A program made the position numbers and the translations under genes. From the NCBI RefSeq assembly GCF_004339245.1, contig NZ_SMGG01000005.1, positions 248,001-312,000 on the forward strand: a stretch of DNA of 64,000 bases, written 5' to 3'. Shown here piece after piece: positions 9,396-64,000 of the stretch (position 1 is the stretch's first letter; every line of letters starts with the position of its first letter). The notes beneath the pieces are model-generated. The model had not been told where the DNA came from. It saw nothing but the letters and a program-made list of their open reading frames with translations, and did not search any database. The stretch comes from Seleniivibrio woodruffii (GTDB lineage Bacteria > Chrysiogenota > Deferribacteres > Deferribacterales > Geovibrionaceae).

Positions 9396-10702
9396 GAGAT
9401 GCCGACTATTTTATCTATCATGCCCGCACTCTCATCCAGAGTGAAGGATTCGTTTATCCTCTGCCTTAAAAATCCGTTAATATCGTTTATCTTCGAAATG
9501 GATTCGTCAATCTTCGGGTTGCTGCCTTTAACGTATGCGCCGATGTTAACAAGGTCTTCCGCCTCGTTATATGTGGCCAGAAGGTCACGGAAACGGCCGG
9601 CGTTGTCATACTGCCTGTCGGTGACTATCTCTTTCATGAGTCGGCTTGCGCTGTTGAGAACGTCTATTGCGGGATAATGGTTTTTCCCCGCCAGTGCCCT
9701 TGAGAGCACAATGTGTCCGTCGATGATTGAACGGACGGTATCACCTATGGGGTCGTTCATGTCGTCCGCCTCAACCAGAACAGTGTAAAGCCCTGTTATT
9801 GAGCCGGGACCCTTCTGTGTGCCTGCCCTTTCAAGAAGTTTCGGCAACAGACCGAAAACCGAAGGCGTGTAACCTTTTGTGGTGGGCGGTTCGCCGACAG
9901 TCAGACCTATCTCCCTCTGCGCCATGGCAAAACGGGTTACAGAGTCCATCATAAGCATTACATTAAGCCCTTTGTTGCGGAAATACTCGGCTATGGCCGT
10001 TCCCACGAACGCACCGAGTTTTCGCACCAGAGCCGACTGGTCGGAGGTTGCAACCACCACCACGCTGCGCTTAAGCCCCTCTTCGCCCAGATCTCTCTCT
10101 ATGAACTCACGCACCTCACGTCCACGCTCGCCTATTAGGGCGATAACGTTTACGTCTGCGTTTGTGTTTCTGGCTATCATACCCAGAGTGACGGATTTAC
10201 CCACGCCGGAACCCGCAAAAATACCGACCCTCTGTCCCATGCCCACAGTGATAAGGTTGTCGATGGCCTTTATGCCTGTTGCGATCGGGTCCTTTATTAT
10301 CTCTCGTTCGAGAGCCTGCGGGGGGCTGTTATACACGTTGATGAGGTCGAAATCCCGTATGGGGCCTTTGCCGTCCAGCGGGTTTCCCAGTCCGTCGAGC
10401 ACTCTGCCCAGCAGACCGTCGCACACCTTGACCGTGTTTCCGTATGATTCGTTTGTGACGGGTGCGCCGGGTGCGATCCCCTCGCTCTCCCCATAGGGCA
10501 TAAGCACTATCCTGTCGTCCTTAAAACCCACTATCTCCGCCAGGATCTCGTTTCCGCCGTATCCTTCGATTCGGCATCTCGTACCGATACCCAGCAGAGG
10601 GCCGTCAGCCTCTATTGTGAGTCCGACAATCTTTGTTACCCTGCCCTTGATCTGAACCGAGGGCTTATGGTCAACTGCCTTCAGGCGTGCCAAATTCTTC
10701 AT
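9392..10702 (-). CDS. fliI: Flagellum-specific ATP synthase FliI
   Basis: 436 residues from the ATG at 10702, preceded by GGAAAGGATAC; an upstream in-frame ATG (10738) would extend into fliH without a good ribosome site. It shows the F1-beta-like fold: Walker A FAGSGVGKSV near residue 165, the IGERGREVREF block, Walker B VMLMMDSVTRFA, and ALAGKNHYPAIDVL. It powers the flagellar type III export gate. The gene starts inside fliH (32-base overlap). A six-G run (10320-10325 on the plus strand) lies within this gene without disturbing the frame, a useful control for the two frameshifts at the right end of the window. Confidence 0.96.
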   Translation of the reverse strand: MKNLARLKAVDHKPSVQIKGRVTKIVGLTIEADGPLLGIGTRCRIEGYGGNEILAEIVGFKDDRIVLMPYGESEGIAPGAPVTNESYGNTVKVCDGLLGRVLDGLGNPLDGKGPIRDFDLINVYNSPPQALEREIIKDPIATGIKAIDNLITVGMGQRVGIFAGSGVGKSVTLGMIARNTNADVNVIALIGERGREVREFIERDLGEEGLKRSVVVVATSDQSALVRKLGAFVGTAIAEYFRNKGLNVMLMMDSVTRFAMAQREIGLTVGEPPTTKGYTPSVFGLLPKLLERAGTQKGPGSITGLYTVLVEADDMNDPIGDTVRSIIDGHIVLSRALAGKNHYPAIDVLNSASRLMKEIVTDRQYDNAGRFRDLLATYNEAEDLVNIGAYVKGSNPKIDESISKINDINGFLRQRINESFTLDESAGMIDKIVGIS

Positions 10703-54995: not shown

Positions 54996-56384
54996 TTACT
55001 TAGGTCCGGTCATGTTCTCCGGCACAACATATTCATCAAACTGCTCCTCCGTCAGATACCCCAGCTTAACAGCCGTCTCTTTCAGAGTGGACTTTTCGGC
55101 GTGGGCGGTCTTGGCTATCTTGGCCGCCTTGTCGTATCCGATGTAGGGATTAAGCGCCGTCACCAGCATCAGCGAATTTTTCAGGTTGAAGTCAATTTTG
55201 TCCCTGTTGGCCTTTATGCCCACAGCACAATGCTCGTTGAAAGAAAGCATTGCATCCGACAGCAGCTTTGCCGACTGGAGGAAGTTATATATTATGACGG
55301 GTTTGAACACGTTCAACTCGAAATTGCCCTGACTGGCGGCAAAACCGATGGCAGCATCATTGCCGAACACCTGGCAGGCAACCATTGTGACTGCTTCGGA
55401 CTGGGTAGGGTTCACCTTTCCGGGCATGATTGAGCTGCCGGGTTCGTTTTCGGGGATCTCAAGCTCCCCTATTCCGCATCTGGGGCCGGAGGCCAGCCAG
55501 CGGATGTCGTTTGCAATCTTCATAAGGTTGGCGGCCAGCGCCTTCATAGCTCCGCTGACACCCGTAAGGGCATCATGGGAGGTAAGCGCCTGAAACTTGT
55601 TCGAGGCCGACTTGAACCTCTTTCCTGTGAACTTGGAAATCTCCTCCGCCGCCATTACAGCCAGCTTGGGATGAGCGTTAAGCCCAGTTCCCACTGCCGT
55701 GCCGCCTATGGCAAGCTCACGGACGTGCTCCAGAGATTCGGTTATCTGGCGTGTATTCGTATCCAGCATTGCGACGTAGCCTGAGAACTCCTGTCCCAGC
55801 GTCAGCGGTGTTGCATCCTGAAGATGTGTCCTGCCTATCTTGACTATCCCCGCAAACTCGTCGGACTTTGCCTGAAGAGTATCCCTCAGAACAGCGATGG
55901 CCGGCAGCAGATCGTCCTCAACTGCAATAACGGCGGCGATGTGCATTGCTGTCGGAAAGGTGTCGTTTGAGCTTTGGGACATGTTCACATGATCATTGGG
56001 GTGGATGAGCCTGTCCGTGCGGAAGTCGCCTCCGAGGATTTCAGTGGCTCGGTTGGCTATAACTTCGTTTAAATTCATATTGGTCTGGGTTCCGCTCCCC
56101 GTCTGCCAGACGGAAAGGGGAAACTGGCCTTCCAGTTTTCCGGCTCTTATTTCGTCACAAGCCTTTGCTATAGCTTCACATTTCTGTTCGTCAAGCTTAC
56201 CCAGACGGTTGTTGACAACAGCCAGTGATCGTTTCAGCACTGCGAACGCATCTATGAGGTTGGCGGGCATTTTTTCCCAGCCTATTTTGAAATTCTCAAG
56301 GCTTCTCTGGGTCTGTGCCGCCCAGTAAACATCTATCGGCACATTGATTTCGCCCATTGTGTCCTTTTCTTTCCTGTACTGCAT
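54996..56384 (-). CDS. fumC: Fumarate hydratase class II
   Basis: 462 residues from the ATG at 56384 ([18 protein letters not shown]); an in-frame upstream ATG at 56441 is less likely. Superfamily signature [34 protein letters not shown], and [21 protein letters not shown] are present. This oxygen-stable, iron-free fumarase interconverts fumarate and malate. It is transcribed away from the class I fumarase genes that start 191 bases away, so the two fumarases share a divergent promoter region. Confidence 0.96.
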
Positions 56385-56528
56385 AAAAACCCCCGAACTG
56401 ATTATATGATTAATTATACCCTTTGTGCCTTTTTTATCCATAGAAATACTTTCCGGCGGAATTATAAAACTCCGTTCATTAATTACCCTTGTTTTTTAAC
56501 CGTCTTTTGAGTAATAATATCGGGTATT

Positions 56529-56557
56529 TTGGTTAACTTTTAGGCAAAACCTATAAT
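56529..56557 (+). promoter_or_regulatory. Sigma-70 promoter of the class I fumarase operon
   Basis: TTGGTT, 17-base spacer, perfect TATAAT, 18 bases before the ATG at 56576. Confidence 0.55.
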
Positions 56558-56575
56558 ATCTATTGCGAGGTGGCT

Positions 56576-57442
56576 ATGGAACTCAAAAACGCAATGCTTG
56601 AGCTGATCCGCAGAGCATCCACCGACCTTTCCCCCGACGTGGAAGCGGCACTCGTACAGGCATACGACAGAGAGGACGACGGCACTCCCGCCAAGAACGT
56701 TTTCGGAACTATCATTGAAAACGTAAAACTGGCCAGAGATGCATCAACACCCGTCTGTCAGGACACGGGTTCGGTTATTATGTACATCGATTTTCCCGTG
56801 GGACACTCCGAAAAAGTCTACAGAGAAGCGGCAGAGGCCGCAGCTATGGAAGCGACAAAGCTTCAGTATCTGCGCCCCAACGCAGTTGACCCCATCACAG
56901 GCAAAAACTCCGGAAACAACGTCGGCGTGAACGCCCCCTACCTCCACTTCCATCAGTGGGACAAGGACGAGGTCAGAGTCCGTCTGATGCTGAAAGGCGG
57001 CGGTTCCGAGAATGTCGGCGCACAGTATAAACTGCCCGACACAACCCTTAAGGCCGGACGTGACCTTAAAGGTGTCAAAAAAGTTGTCATTGATGCCGTT
57101 AACAAGGCTCAGGGACAGGGATGCGCACCCGGGATCATCGGCGTCGGAATCGGCGGCGACAGAGTGACCTCCTATGCGCTTTCAAAAGAGCAGTTCTTCC
57201 GCAAACTGGGCGAACCCAGCTCAAACCCCGATCTTGCCGCTCTGGAAAAAGAGCTTTATGAAGACCTTAACAAACTCGGCATAGGCCCCATGGGCTTCGG
57301 CGGAAAAACAACCTGCCTCGGCGTAAACATCGCCGCACAGCACAGACACCCCGCAACCTTCTATGTTGCAATCTCCTACACCTGCTGGGTTTACAGAAGA
57401 AAACAAATGATCATCAAAGGAAGCGAGGTGACCTATGATTAA
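56576..57442 (+). CDS. Fumarate hydratase class I, alpha subunit (4Fe-4S)
   Basis: 288 residues from the ATG at 56576, preceded by GCGAGG. It corresponds to the N-terminal part of single-chain class I fumarase: STPVCQDTGSVIMYIDFP (first cluster Cys), RPNAVDPITGKNSGNNVGVNAP, APGIIGVGIGGDR, and FGGKTTCLGVNIAAQHRHPATFYVA. Two-subunit class I hydratases also include L-tartrate dehydratase, which cannot be fully excluded, but the TCA context favours fumarase. It overlaps the beta-subunit gene by eight bases. Confidence 0.9.
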   Translation: MELKNAMLELIRRASTDLSPDVEAALVQAYDREDDGTPAKNVFGTIIENVKLARDASTPVCQDTGSVIMYIDFPVGHSEKVYREAAEAAAMEATKLQYLRPNAVDPITGKNSGNNVGVNAPYLHFHQWDKDEVRVRLMLKGGGSENVGAQYKLPDTTLKAGRDLKGVKKVVIDAVNKAQGQGCAPGIIGVGIGGDRVTSYALSKEQFFRKLGEPSSNPDLAALEKELYEDLNKLGIGPMGFGGKTTCLGVNIAAQHRHPATFYVAISYTCWVYRRKQMIIKGSEVTYD

Positions 57443-58019
57443 GCTCACAACACCCATTTCTGAAGAGACCGCAAGATCTCTGAAAGTGGGCGATGAGGTT
57501 CTTCTCACTGGAACCATAGTCACCGCCAGAGACGCAGCCCACAAGCTGATGGTTGAAGAAAAGCCGGATTTCCCCCGTCCCTATATGAAGGACGGAGTCA
57601 TATATCACTGCGGCCCCGTTGTTAAAAAACACGAAGACGGTTCATACAGCTTCGTAGCCGCAGGCCCCACAACATCCACCCGTGAAGAGCCTTATCAGGC
57701 TGCGGTTTGCGAGGAGTATTCTGTCAGAGCCGTCATAGGCAAAGGCGGAATGGGTCCCAAAACGCTGGAGGGTCTCCAGAAGGTGGGCGCAGTGTACCTG
57801 CACGCCGTGGGCGGAGCCGGAACACTGATAGCCAAGAGATGCACAAAAGTGGAAACCGTTTTCAAACTTGAAGAATTCGGAACACCCGAGGCGTTCTGGG
57901 TAATTCAGGTCGAGGATTTCCCCTGTGTTGTCACAATGGACAGCCACGGAAACTCACTGCACAAAGAGATAGCGGCTAAATCTGATGAGGTCGCTAAGGA
58001 ACTTATGGGTCTGAAATAA
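57435..58019 (+). CDS. Fumarate hydratase class I, beta subunit
   Basis: 194 residues matching the C-terminal part of class I fumarase: VLLTGTIVTARDAAHKL, YHCGPVVKK, FVAAGPTTSTREEPYQ, GKGGMGPKTLEGLQKVGAVYLHAVGGAGTLIAK, and FWVIQVEDFPCVVTMDSHGNSLH. It supplies substrate-binding residues and completes the active site with the alpha subunit. A terminator follows seven bases after the stop. Confidence 0.9.
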   Translation: MIKLTTPISEETARSLKVGDEVLLTGTIVTARDAAHKLMVEEKPDFPRPYMKDGVIYHCGPVVKKHEDGSYSFVAAGPTTSTREEPYQAAVCEEYSVRAVIGKGGMGPKTLEGLQKVGAVYLHAVGGAGTLIAKRCTKVETVFKLEEFGTPEAFWVIQVEDFPCVVTMDSHGNSLHKEIAAKSDEVAKELMGLK

Positions 58020-58358: not shown

Positions 58359-60413
58359 ATGATGTTTGTTCGCACGGCTTTGGCGGTGACCCTTGCGGTT
58401 TTCACTGCGGCTCACGTCTGGGCGGCAGAAAAGAAGACAACACCGCTCAGGGACATTCTGAATGAAATTTCAAAAACAAGTCCCGAAATCAGAGAATCCG
58501 TTAACGTTTTCGACAGTGTCAACGCTGAACTTAAGATGGCAAAAACCGGCTACAATCCCACAGTTTCCGCCTACCTCTCCGGAGGCAAAGAGATAACCGA
58601 CGGAGTGGACACCGACGGCGAGCGCAAAGACCTCAACTCCACCAGCGCGTCACTCACCCTGCGGCAGAACGTTTTCAACGGAAACGGAACGGCGAACTAT
58701 GTCAGAGAGACTCAGGCCAGAGCAATGTCGGCATCATACGACGTCCTCAACGTTGCCAACAAGATTTTCCTCGCTGCGTCCGAATCATACATAACTGTTC
58801 TGCAGGAGAAGGAACTTCTGGACATAGCCCTTGAAAACGTAACCACTCAGGCGCAGATTCTGGAACAGATAAAAGAGAAGACAAAATCAGGATTCGGAAA
58901 ACTCTCCGACCTTACAAACGCTCAGGCAAGACTCGCTCTTTCCAGAGCCAACTATATATCCCAGCAGCAGAACCTTAAACAGGCCATAGTCAAATTCCAT
59001 CGTCAGGCCGGACGCTTCGTAACTCCGGAAGAGTTCGTTATGCCGGAACTGACCTACTCTCTGCCGAAATCAGCAGACGATATGGTGGATATAGCCTTCA
59101 CAACCTACCCCGCAATCAACGTTGCCGACTATAACATTGTCGCCAAAAAGTACGGCAAAAAGCGTGTGAACGCACAGTACTACCCATCGGTGGACTTTGA
59201 GCTGAAAGCCACCCACAACAACAACACAGGCGGAGACGAAGGCTCAACCGACATTCAGTCGGCCATGCTCTCCCTTAACTATAATCTTTACGACGGCGGC
59301 AAGCGAAATGCTGAAAAACAGCTGCGCAGTGCCGAAATGATGAAGGAATATGAAAGAAGCTACGTCGAACGCAGAAACCTTATCGAAGCTGTCAGGCTGG
59401 CATGGAACATCAAAGAGGCGGAGGATGCAAAAATCCCCTTCCTTAAAGATTATGTCGAGCTGACAGGCAAAACAAGGGACGCTTTCGTTGAGGAGAACAG
59501 GCTCGGCCGCAGAAGCCTCAACGAGGTTCTGAACATGGAGAACGAATACAACTCATCAAAGGCAACCCTTGCCAGATCAAAATATAACTCAATAATCGCT
59601 TATTTCAGACTGCTTCAGGCAACGGGTCTTCTTCTGGCTGAGTATGACGATGCACTGGCCGGAAAGGTCGGACTGCCCGAAAAGAAACCCATGAACAAGC
59701 TCGAAAAATACGGGAATCTGGATTTCAACAAGGACAAGGACGAAGCTGACGATAAAAAAGACCAGTGCCAGCAGTCTGCAGCCGCCCAAACAGCACCCTT
59801 CGGCTGTGAGAACACGGAAGGAGTTGAGGTTGGCTACACCATCCCCGACTATTTCGCACCCTACATAAAGCCTCAGGTGAGCACTCCCGCATCCGCACCT
59901 CAGGATTCGCTGGAAAGCATCAGTTCCGACAGCCTGGGCGAGCCGGAAAAATCATCCGATGCAGCGGCAAGAACGGCGGCAAAACCCGTGGCTGTTAAAC
60001 CCGCCGCAAAAACTGCAGTACCTGCGGTTCTGCCCCCTGCGAAAATGATAGATCCGGGCAGAAAAGAACAGACGATAACCCTGCCGGGAAACTCATTTAA
60101 ACCCAATACATTCGATCTCACAGACGAGGCCACGGCCACCCTTCTGCGCATCGCAAGGGAGCTTAGAACACTTAAAACACCCTACACCCTGAAAATATAT
60201 GCCCATACTGACGACTCTCTGACTCCCGAACAGGGCAAAGATATGACAAAATTGATGGTTTTTGCAGTTCACAACAGATTTCTTGAGCTTGGAATACCGA
60301 AAGGTGCTATGCTCGGATACGGTAAAGGCGGTTCAGAACCCCTCGTGCCCAACGACTCCGAAACAGCAAGAGCCAGAAACAAAAGGGTTGAGCTGAAAAT
60401 AATAACAAACTGA
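58359..60413 (+). CDS. TolC-type outer-membrane channel fused to an OmpA domain (LapE-like, type I secretion)
   Basis: 684 residues (start 58359, or the next ATG at 58362). Signal peptide MMFVRTALAVTLAVFTAAHVWA; then a TolC-family domain (residues about 28-445) with the repeated helical-hairpin pattern and the SLNYNLYDGGKRNAEKQLRSAE and EENRLGRRSLNEVLNMENEYNSSKA blocks; an Ala/Pro/Lys-rich linker (about 455-570); and a C-terminal OmpA-like peptidoglycan-binding domain (about 575-684: ATLLRIARELRTLKTPYTLKIYAHTDD, then LGYGKGGSEPLVPNDSETARARNKRVELK). In Lap-type systems TolC-like LapE exports the adhesin and holds it in the channel. Here the peptidoglycan anchor is in the same chain. It is the first gene of a tight plus-strand operon. 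Confidence 0.88.
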   Translation: MMFVRTALAVTLAVFTAAHVWAAEKKTTPLRDILNEISKTSPEIRESVNVFDSVNAELKMAKTGYNPTVSAYLSGGKEITDGVDTDGERKDLNSTSASLTLRQNVFNGNGTANYVRETQARAMSASYDVLNVANKIFLAASESYITVLQEKELLDIALENVTTQAQILEQIKEKTKSGFGKLSDLTNAQARLALSRANYISQQQNLKQAIVKFHRQAGRFVTPEEFVMPELTYSLPKSADDMVDIAFTTYPAINVADYNIVAKKYGKKRVNAQYYPSVDFELKATHNNNTGGDEGSTDIQSAMLSLNYNLYDGGKRNAEKQLRSAEMMKEYERSYVERRNLIEAVRLAWNIKEAEDAKIPFLKDYVELTGKTRDAFVEENRLGRRSLNEVLNMENEYNSSKATLARSKYNSIIAYFRLLQATGLLLAEYDDALAGKVGLPEKKPMNKLEKYGNLDFNKDKDEADDKKDQCQQSAAAQTAPFGCENTEGVEVGYTIPDYFAPYIKPQVSTPASAPQDSLESISSDSLGEPEKSSDAAARTAAKPVAVKPAAKTAVPAVLPPAKMIDPGRKEQTITLPGNSFKPNTFDLTDEATATLLRIARELRTLKTPYTLKIYAHTDDSLTPEQGKDMTKLMVFAVHNRFLELGIPKGAMLGYGKGGSEPLVPNDSETARARNKRVELKIITN

Positions 60414-60423
60414 TGTAGGTGCT

Positions 60424-61075
60424 ATGCGTTTTAAAACTTTGACAGCCGTCATTCTGATGAGTGTGTTTGCGGTGTCAGGCATTCTGTCTGCTGCGTCAAA
60501 GTTTTACGTCCCCGATGCCGTTTTCGACCAGTACCGTAAGAAATACGGAGAACAGGCGGAAACAAGACTTAGTGCCCTGCTTGAGCTTATGGACGGGCTG
60601 ACCGACGCTTCTGACGACAAAAAAGCGATAGAGGTCAACAAGTTCTTCAATCAGGTCCAGTATCAGACGGACATTAAGACGTGGGGGCAGAGCGACTACT
60701 GGGCGAGCAGGCTGGAGTTTCTGGGTGTGGGCATGGGTGACTGCGAGGACTACGCCGTTTCGAAGTTCCTAACCCTTATCCAGCTGGGAGTCCCTCAGGA
60801 AAAGCTTTTCCTGACATACGTTAAGCGGGGGGACAGAATCCCACATGGTTGTAACCTATTACAAAGAGCCGAACACCGTGCCCTTTGTTCTGGACAACTT
60901 CGAAAAGGCCATATTGCCCGCAACAAAACGAACCGACCTTGCTCCGGTCTACAGCTTCACGGCAAACGACCTCTTCCTTCAGAAACAGCAGGGTCTTGGA
61001 AAAAGGGTTGACCCGTCTCAATCCAAAAACCTGAACAAACTCAAAGCAATAGATCTTGAAATCGTGAAGAGGTAG
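60424..61075 (+). pseudogene. LapG-like transglutaminase-type cysteine protease, interrupted by a frameshift at a G6 run
   Basis: The first frame gives MRFKTLTAVILMSVFAVSGILS (signal peptide) and FVPD-like, VNKFFNQVQYQTDIKTWGQSDYWASRLEFLGVGMGDCEDYAVSKFLTL with the catalytic Cys at 107. After LTYVKRGDRIP the frame is lost; the third frame continues with HMVVTYYKEPNTVPFVLDN (catalytic His and Asp) and runs to the stop at 61075. Removing one G (or adding two) from the six-G run at 60827-60832 restores one reading frame of about 216 residues with the full Cys-His-Asp triad. LapG cleaves the N-terminus of LapA-type adhesins and is held inactive by LapD. As written, the gene would give a protein lacking His and Asp. 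It may be a real phase-off state, a pseudogene or a sequencing error. Confidence 0.85.
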
Positions 61076-61078
61076 GAA

Positions 61079-63007
61079 ATGACGCTTTTCAGACAGATTC
61101 AGATACTCATAACAACCATACTGATAGTGATGCTTGCGGCTGTGCTGAAGATAAATTTCGACAACACCACCGAGTTCATACGCAACCAGATGTATTCCAA
61201 CGCAAAGAACACTGCAAACTCAGTTTCGCTGTCCCTCAGCCCCTTCACAAACGACACCGCCATAATGGTAACCATGATAAACGCCATGTATGACGGCGGT
61301 TACTACGAGGAGATACGCCTCACGGGGAACGACGGCAAAGACATATACAGGGTGCATCAGGAGCCGAAGATAGAGGGCGTGCCCGCTTTTTTCGTTAAAC
61401 TGGTGAAACTGGAAACACCCGCCGCAGATGCTCAGATATCTAACGGATGGAATATAGCGGGGAAGCTCACCGTCAAGGGACACCCCGGACTCTCATATAT
61501 TCAGCTCTGGGACAGCTTTAAATACCTCTGCCTCTCCTTCATCGTGATAGGCGGCATAGCTGTGGCGTTCAGCCATGTGATCCTCAAGTTCCTCCTCTCA
61601 GCCCTTGTGAACATCCGCAAACAGGCGGAGGCCATTGGCAACAACGACTTCATGATAAACGAGAAAGTCCCCCGCACACCTGAACTTAAACAGGTGGTTC
61701 TGGCAATGAACCAGATGACGGGGAAAGTTCAGTCAATTTACGACAGAGAGATAGACACCCTGAAAAAATATCAGGAACTGCTCTACAGAGACCAGCTGAC
61801 GGGGCTTTATAATCGCAAATACTTCGTAAACAAGCTTACAGAATACATAGAATCCGAGTCAAAAAACTCCGACGGCGAAATAGCCCTCATCTCATTCGAA
61901 GGCATCGACAGAGCCATAGCCGAAGTTGGACACCCCAATATGCGCCCCTTCTATGATGCTGTTGCGAAATACATGAACGACAATTTTTCATCGGACGGCT
62001 GTCTGCCCTCATGCTTCAACAGGCAGGAACTGGCCGCCATAATGCCCGCCCTCAATCAGGAGGATTCGGCATTCAAGATTAACGGCTTCATAAAATGGGC
62101 TAAGGAACTGATAGCCGCAAACGACAGACTGGCGGACATCATAACCGTTAAAGCCGGACTCACTTCATACAGATACGACGAGACCACAGCAAAGGTGCTC
62201 TCCAAAGCCGACTACGCACTCACTGTGGCCAAGAGCATGGAAACAGGGGATGTCAGCCGTTTCAACGACAGCTCCAACCAGATGGTTCTGGGCAAACTGG
62301 AGTGGAAAAACATGATAGAGACAGCTCTGGCAGAAAACAGATTCATCCTGACCTCTCAGGCGGTAACATCACCCACGGGCGAATTGCATCAGGAGATATT
62401 CGTAAACTTGAAAGACGAGAACGGCAACATCCAGCGTGCGGGCTTCTTCATGCCCATGGTGGTTAACCTGAACCTCGCAAACAATCTGGACAGATACGTT
62501 CTGGAAAAATCAGTGGAATACCTCACCGCAAAGCCTGACAGCACACTGGCAATCAACATCACCGACGTGTTCCTCAACGACAGGGCTTCATTCTCGTGGT
62601 TCCGTCAGCTTCTGCTCGGCAGCAAACACCTGAAAGAGCGCATAACATTTGAAATATCCGACAACGCAATAAACAACAATGCCGACATCTGCCTAGACTT
62701 CGCAGGGCTGATAAAGGGTCTGGGATTCACCTTCGGGGTGGACAGATTCGCAATGAGCCCCAAGTCTCTGGAAAATCTCCAGAAACTGAAGCCGAACTAC
62801 ATAAAGATAGACTATGACTATCTGATAGGTTCCGGCGAGGACGCAGACACAGCAATCCATTCGCTCCAGACAATTACAGAGAGCCTCGGAATAAAGCTCA
62901 TCGCCACCAAAGTTGAGAACAGCGAGCTTAAAACTGCTCTGGAAAACAAAAATATCAAATATTTTCAGGGACGTGGTATCGCCGATATCACCCCTCTGAA
63001 TAAGTGA
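61079..63007 (+). CDS. LapD-like c-di-GMP receptor (degenerate GGDEF-EAL with HAMP)
   Basis: 642 residues. Transmembrane helix near residues 8-27, a periplasmic LapD/MoxY-type output domain (about 28-150; TEFIRNQMYSNAKNTANSVSLSLSPF), a second helix (about 155-175), HAMP, GGDEF-like and EAL-like domains. Both catalytic sites are lost: the GGDEF position reads RQELAA, the ExL position reads EIF, and the DDFGSG position reads VDRFAMS. Such proteins bind c-di-GMP without making or breaking it and pass the signal outwards to sequester LapG. It starts four bases after the lapG-like stop and precedes the transporter, matching a Lap operon. Confidence 0.88.
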   Translation: MTLFRQIQILITTILIVMLAAVLKINFDNTTEFIRNQMYSNAKNTANSVSLSLSPFTNDTAIMVTMINAMYDGGYYEEIRLTGNDGKDIYRVHQEPKIEGVPAFFVKLVKLETPAADAQISNGWNIAGKLTVKGHPGLSYIQLWDSFKYLCLSFIVIGGIAVAFSHVILKFLLSALVNIRKQAEAIGNNDFMINEKVPRTPELKQVVLAMNQMTGKVQSIYDREIDTLKKYQELLYRDQLTGLYNRKYFVNKLTEYIESESKNSDGEIALISFEGIDRAIAEVGHPNMRPFYDAVAKYMNDNFSSDGCLPSCFNRQELAAIMPALNQEDSAFKINGFIKWAKELIAANDRLADIITVKAGLTSYRYDETTAKVLSKADYALTVAKSMETGDVSRFNDSSNQMVLGKLEWKNMIETALAENRFILTSQAVTSPTGELHQEIFVNLKDENGNIQRAGFFMPMVVNLNLANNLDRYVLEKSVEYLTAKPDSTLAINITDVFLNDRASFSWFRQLLLGSKHLKERITFEISDNAINNNADICLDFAGLIKGLGFTFGVDRFAMSPKSLENLQKLKPNYIKIDYDYLIGSGEDADTAIHSLQTITESLGIKLIATKVENSELKTALENKNIKYFQGRGIADITPLNK

Positions 63008-63020
63008 CGGAAGTCAGAAT

Positions 63021-64000
63021 ATGAACAGAGATATAGCTATTGATCCGCTGATGCAGTGTCTGGTGACGCTGACCAGACTGAACAACAAGCCCGCAAGTGC
63101 GGAGGCGCTGGCCTACGGTCTTCCCCTCGACCCCGAACAGAAGACCCAGTCGCTCTTCACCCTTGGCGGAGCAAAATCTAATTTTTCAAGGGCGGCGGGC
63201 AGAGCGGGATTCAACTCCAGACTGGTCAAACGTGAACTGAAAGACATCCCAAACGTTATTCTGCCGGTAATACTGCTGCTTAAGAACAGAGATGCATGCG
63301 TGCTCACAGACATAGACTTTTCCGAGGGCGTGGCGGAGATAATCGTTCCATCCGTCGATGAAACCCCGCAGGAAATCTCAATAGAAAAACTGGAAGAGGA
63401 ATACATGGGATTCTGCTTCCTGCTGAAACGTGTTTTCAGACAGGACAGTCAGGGCGAAACCGCCGACACAGAGGAGAAAAAAGAGGACAAGCACTGGTTC
63501 TTCGGAACCCTGTGGCGTTTCAGAGACCTCTACACAAACGTTTTAATTGCATCCGTCCTCATAAACATATTTGTCACCGTCAGCCCCCTGTTCACCATGA
63601 ACGTTTACGACAGGGTTATCCCCCCACAACGCCGTGGACACCCTCTGGGTTCTGGCCATAGGCATGTGCATCATCTATATTTTCGACATCACCATAAAAT
63701 ATCTGCGGACATATTTCCTTGAGATAGCCGCCAAAAAGAGTGATGTTATCCTCTCGTCCATGATTTTCGAGCAGGCGCTTAATATCAGAATGAAAGAAAA
63801 GCCCAAATCCGTGGGTTCTTTCGCCAGCAACATCAAAGAGTTCGACAGTATCCGCTCATTCTACGCTTCAAGTGCGATAACGGCGTTCATAGAACTGCCC
63901 TTCGTACTCATATTCATAGTGGTGATCTACTACATCGGCGGCATAATAGTTCTTATCCCTCTGCTGATAATGGCAATAATCATCGGCTACGGTCTTTATA
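63021..64000 (+). pseudogene. LapB-like type I secretion ABC transporter, frameshifted at a C6 run and cut by the window edge
   Basis: The N-terminus (DPLMQCLVTLTRLNNKPASAEALAYGLPL) is the C39-like domain of the LapB/LssB family of adhesin exporters. The membrane domain begins LYTNVLIASVLINIFVTVSPLFTMNVYDRVIP. At the six-C run 63620-63625 the frame is lost (first frame stops at 63722); deleting one C gives IPHNAVDTLWVLAIGMCIIYIFD and an open frame to the end of the window, with EFDSIRSFYASSAITAFIELPFVL as in this family. The ATPase domain lies outside. This transporter would export the large adhesin through the TolC-OmpA channel; the membrane-fusion protein and adhesin are not in the window. 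Confidence 0.82.

Follow-up and report, generated by a model that had tools for sequence, protein, structure and literature searches.

Two genes of one predicted adhesin-retention system in the environmental bacterium Seleniivibrio woodruffii, a lapG-like protease gene and a lapB-like exporter gene, each lose their reading frame at a run of six identical bases, which raises the question of whether the cells have lost these functions, can switch them on and off, or carry intact genes that were misread in the assembly. The breaks lie in a window of 64,000 nucleotides, i.e., the whole stretch of DNA analyzed here, that comprises positions 248001-312000 of contig 5 (NZ_SMGG01000005.1; 336,944 bases) from a 2.9-Mb genome of the Deferribacterota in 11 contigs. 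We favor the reading that two recent, real one-base insertions have inactivated LapG and LapB in the sequenced strain while leaving the Lap system otherwise complete, and we assign it a probability of about 55%.

Judged by its domain content, the locus is a genuine and complete Lap-type system composed of a TolC-OmpA channel, LapG, LapD, LapB, LapC, a regulator, and an adhesin, and profile matches uphold the LapG-like and LapB-like identities that a first-pass annotation of the window had assigned to a single system. On the plus strand of the window, an intact gene for a LapE-like channel of the TolC family with a C-terminal OmpA domain (58359-60413; PF02321, PF00691; TIGR01844 above cut-off) is followed by the broken lapG-like gene for a C93 cysteine protease (60424-61075), an intact gene for a LapD-like c-di-GMP receptor (61079-63007), and the broken lapB-like gene for an LssB-class T1SS ABC exporter, which begins at 63021 and runs past the last position of the window (64000) to contig position 313169. 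By Pfam, the LapD-like protein combines a periplasmic LapD_MoxY_N domain with GGDEF and EAL domains (PF16448, PF00990, PF00563), and NF045673 (LapD) is its best NCBIfam match, yet under the cut-off of that model; sequestration of LapG by LapD under the control of c-di-GMP is putative here. The OmpA domain of the channel is of the peptidoglycan-binding kind, and the congeners have an open reading frame of similar length at this place. At 54996-58019, the minus strand carries a class II fumarase-like gene beside a plus-strand pair that resembles the two subunits of a class I fumarase, all named by eye from their translations.

The first-pass annotation had suggested looking to the right of the window for a LapA-type adhesin and a membrane-fusion gene, and both indeed lie there. 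The latter encodes an HlyD-type adaptor (LapC; contig 5, 313169-314506; TIGR01843), so that an LssB-class exporter (TIGR03375, in two pieces and broken here), an HlyD adaptor, and a TolC channel are all present. The former is a giant gene convergent to the operon (contig 5, about 315204-327929), whose product of about 4,241 aa contains cadherin-like and VCBS repeats. Its N-terminus carries a LapA retention module (NF033682, residues 5-112) and, near residue 101, a TAAG motif of the di-alanine type that LapG cuts in P. fluorescens LapA. Its tandem repeats are interrupted by 95 Ns (contig 5, 322959-323053), as in a scaffolded short-read assembly, and apart from these the reading frame is open from end to end. 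Between lapC and the adhesin gene lies a gene for a LuxR/GerE-type regulator (contig 5, 314503-315084; L002:8504-9085) that may link adhesin expression to another signal; three congeners have a similarly sized open reading frame there. The order of the locus, with open frames, is likewise the same in three congeners.

The frame losses had been placed at a G6 run in lapG (60827-60832) and a C6 run in lapB (63620-63625), where they are seen in the sequence itself, in the frame HMM described below, and by comparison with ten family members that carry the operon, i.e., four congeners (G001-G004) and six others. Using tblastn with the pieces flanking each run, we found both halves of lapG and both halves of lapB in a single open frame in all ten relatives, whereas the window carries one surplus base between the halves of each gene. 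The first-pass annotation had likewise stated that a one-base correction restores the conserved sequence on both sides. The first piece of lapG, which ends at about 60826 after ..LFLTYVKR, contains GDCED with the catalytic Cys and scores above the cut-off of PF06035, while the remainder continues in another frame to 61075 and holds SHMVV and VLDN with the His and Asp; all three C93 protease motifs are encoded but split over two frames, and both pieces match the open genes of the relatives. These motifs were assigned by aligning a congener LapG with the solved chains of its relatives 4u65 and 4fgo, which bears out the earlier placement of the break between the Cys and the His/Asp. The two pieces of lapB tile the LssB profile TIGR03375 at 1-183 and 181-693 and join near 181-185, in agreement with the claim that this frame is lost inside the membrane domain.

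That the frames downstream of both runs are open and conserved would also suit programmed or leaky +1 recoding, i.e., slippage of the ribosome or polymerase that yields full-length LapG and LapB such that the breaks would be merely apparent. GGG-G and CCC-C count among the classic slippery sequences, and the shift required is +1 in either gene. However, all relatives encode the two proteins without any shift, which means that there is no conserved recoding site, and slippage at six-base runs is expected to be weak. We therefore regard recoding as a highly improbable explanation.

A more pressing concern is whether the surplus bases exist in the cells at all, since a sequencing error had been named as the alternative from the outset. 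We scanned for further breaks in two ways, i.e., by searching the open reading frames of the four congeners against contig 5 and by applying a hexamer coding-frame HMM that permits frame jumps to 937 kb of the host (sampled stretches that amount to about a third of the genome and include the whole of contig 5) as well as to a single contig from G001 and another from G002. Among the 99 host reading frames for which the retrieved stretches contained a homologue, no gene other than lapG and lapB was split, and at G/C runs in the 937 kb the HMM detected these two breaks alone. The model recovered 34-45 of 60 simulated one-base insertions, depending on the threshold, and a few additional breaks may exist in the sample. 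Both scans agree with the earlier statement that the remaining genes of the window read through, which now extends to the 337-kb contig, and the frame across the G6 run in fliI (10320-10325) is unbroken as had been noted. Possible extra breaks at C7 runs (contig positions 126928 and 135705) were dismissed as both frames read through, and three other HMM candidates (C3:255944, C3:276142, C3:1004794) resemble ordinary gene overlaps and lie off G/C runs.

The sample contains 95 G/C runs of at least six bases (86 six-mers, nine seven-mers, none longer), 88 of which sit in open frames that span 150 codons or more. Simply calling the frame to the left and right of every run flagged the two lap sites and, beyond these, only the natural lapB/lapC junction at contig position 313157. 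Because the lap breaks are the sole G/C-run breaks found in the 937 kb despite 88 intragenic runs, the assembly does not appear to be generally faulty at homopolymers, and miscalling throughout the genome can be rejected. The operon holds three of the 88 intragenic runs, so the chance that two random breaks would both fall there is 3/3828, or about 8e-4. The clustering of both breaks thus exceeds chance, but errors that occur close together would look no different.

Hence, the part of the sequencing-error alternative that stands is an error local to the operon, i.e., that lapG and lapB are intact in the cells and that the base count of two six-base runs went wrong in the consensus where coverage was poor. 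This is the main rival of a real double loss, and we hold it to be a serious but less likely possibility. One extra homopolymer base, as seen at both sites, is the commonest consensus indel; the sites are only 2.8 kb apart and could share a local cause such as low coverage; their flanking pieces are free of decay; and the Ns in the adjoining adhesin gene lie 11 kb further on. Against a local fault, the runs on both sides of the breaks, at contig positions 301479 and 313157, have lengths that preserve the frame, the 88 intragenic runs of six or seven bases yielded no other break, and the hit on two genes of one pathway would then be a coincidence of place. Conversely, a real double loss is favored by the breaks falling in one functional system and in genes that are broken only in this genome compared with the ten relatives, whereas the unbroken state of the adhesin gene, a target of 12.7 kb, counts against it.

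If the insertions are real, they could in principle be reversible. The first-pass annotation had proposed that the runs might be contingency loci at which slippage switches adhesin release and export, and the genes are indeed surface-related, the changes are of a single homopolymer base, and slippage could be reversed. Short variable tracts have been reported, e.g., a C5/C6 run in a gene of N. meningitidis (PMC5084427) and tracts of fewer than seven bases in C. jejuni (PMC5133587). However, neither run is conserved in any of the ten relatives. Each of them lacks the runs or has shorter ones: the lapG site has four G at most in the congeners, the lapB site has five C in G002, and no six-base run occurs at either site in any of the ten. 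Moreover, the runs are just six bases long, no G/C run in the 937 kb exceeds seven bases, none of the nine seven-base runs was found broken by the frame HMM, and the genome has mismatch repair genes. As these runs are short and lack conservation, we consider evolved phase variation unlikely and do not uphold the contingency-locus proposal. The broader idea that such very short G/C runs provide reversible, multi-state control of stickiness through export and release in a bacterium of the Deferribacterota seems more doubtful still, and our literature search found nothing published on homopolymer switching of a Lap system.

A genuine loss would have to be young. In the pieces that flank each break, dN/dS is about 0.02-0.14, like that of intact lapD, in what is a coarse test with dS near saturation; any loss must therefore be recent, and old pseudogenes are ruled out within the limits of this test. 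No second LapG or LapB exceeds the family cut-off in the host genome, and there is therefore no intact compensating copy. Both mutS and mutL are open across their models, so the background is not that of a mutator. A genus search for a second strain of the host species gave only four other genomes, and these congeners share 75-80% DNA identity with the host over the stretches compared, which indicates that the window's species is distinct from each of them.

In the double loss that we favor, replication slippage in the short G/C runs would have inserted one base each into lapG and lapB. A LapG that lacks His and Asp would leave the adhesin uncut, so that exported adhesin would remain anchored in the outer-membrane channel, while interruption of LapB in its membrane domain would abolish adhesin export. 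The double mutant is predicted to display no adhesin and to live planktonically, and the likeliest history would be growth under selection for non-clumping cells. Either lapG was lost first and the loss of lapB acted as a suppressor of permanent stickiness, or lapB was lost first such that the system fell silent and lapG became dispensable. We infer that the loss of lapG plausibly came first, since this two-step history would explain why both breaks fell into one system. In P. aeruginosa with high c-di-GMP, loss of lapG indeed causes hyper-aggregation, and taking away the adhesin CdrA abolishes it (PMC4694147). Should the insertions be real, the sequenced strain carries mutations in two genes of a c-di-GMP-controlled adhesin switch, and attachment studies unaware of this would mislead; at the same time, the strain would offer a retention-type adhesin that has lost both protease and exporter, so that one could test which loss came first and what a LapG-less state costs. 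The locus is also a record of a full Lap system in the Deferribacterota.

Compared with known systems, the locus most resembles the Lap system of P. fluorescens (LapA, LapB, LapC, LapE, LapD, LapG) in that all parts occur at one locus with matching domains, i.e., an adhesin with retention module and TAAG motif, a C93 protease, LapD, an LssB-class exporter, an HlyD adaptor, and a TolC channel. It differs by the OmpA domain on the channel, the LuxR-type regulator in the operon, the convergent adhesin gene, and the broken sequences of lapG and lapB. The contingency loci of Neisseria and Campylobacter likewise change frame at homopolymer runs, but most of their tracts are longer, with variation between isolates or inside colonies (PMC5084427, PMC5133587), whereas those of Seleniivibrio have six bases and are not conserved in the genus. 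A parallel for a loss is D. vulgaris Hildenborough (DVU1017-DVU1020), an anaerobe outside the pseudomonads in which a LapB-type exporter also adjoins a LapG-like protease, and where a laboratory line lost its biofilm through a single base change in DVU1017, the T1SS ABC exporter (PMC5646257). Unlike that locus, Seleniivibrio has a LapD-like receptor, and where D. vulgaris acquired a substitution in a single gene, whose phenotype was tested (PMC5646257), Seleniivibrio would have acquired two insertions in two genes, known from sequence.
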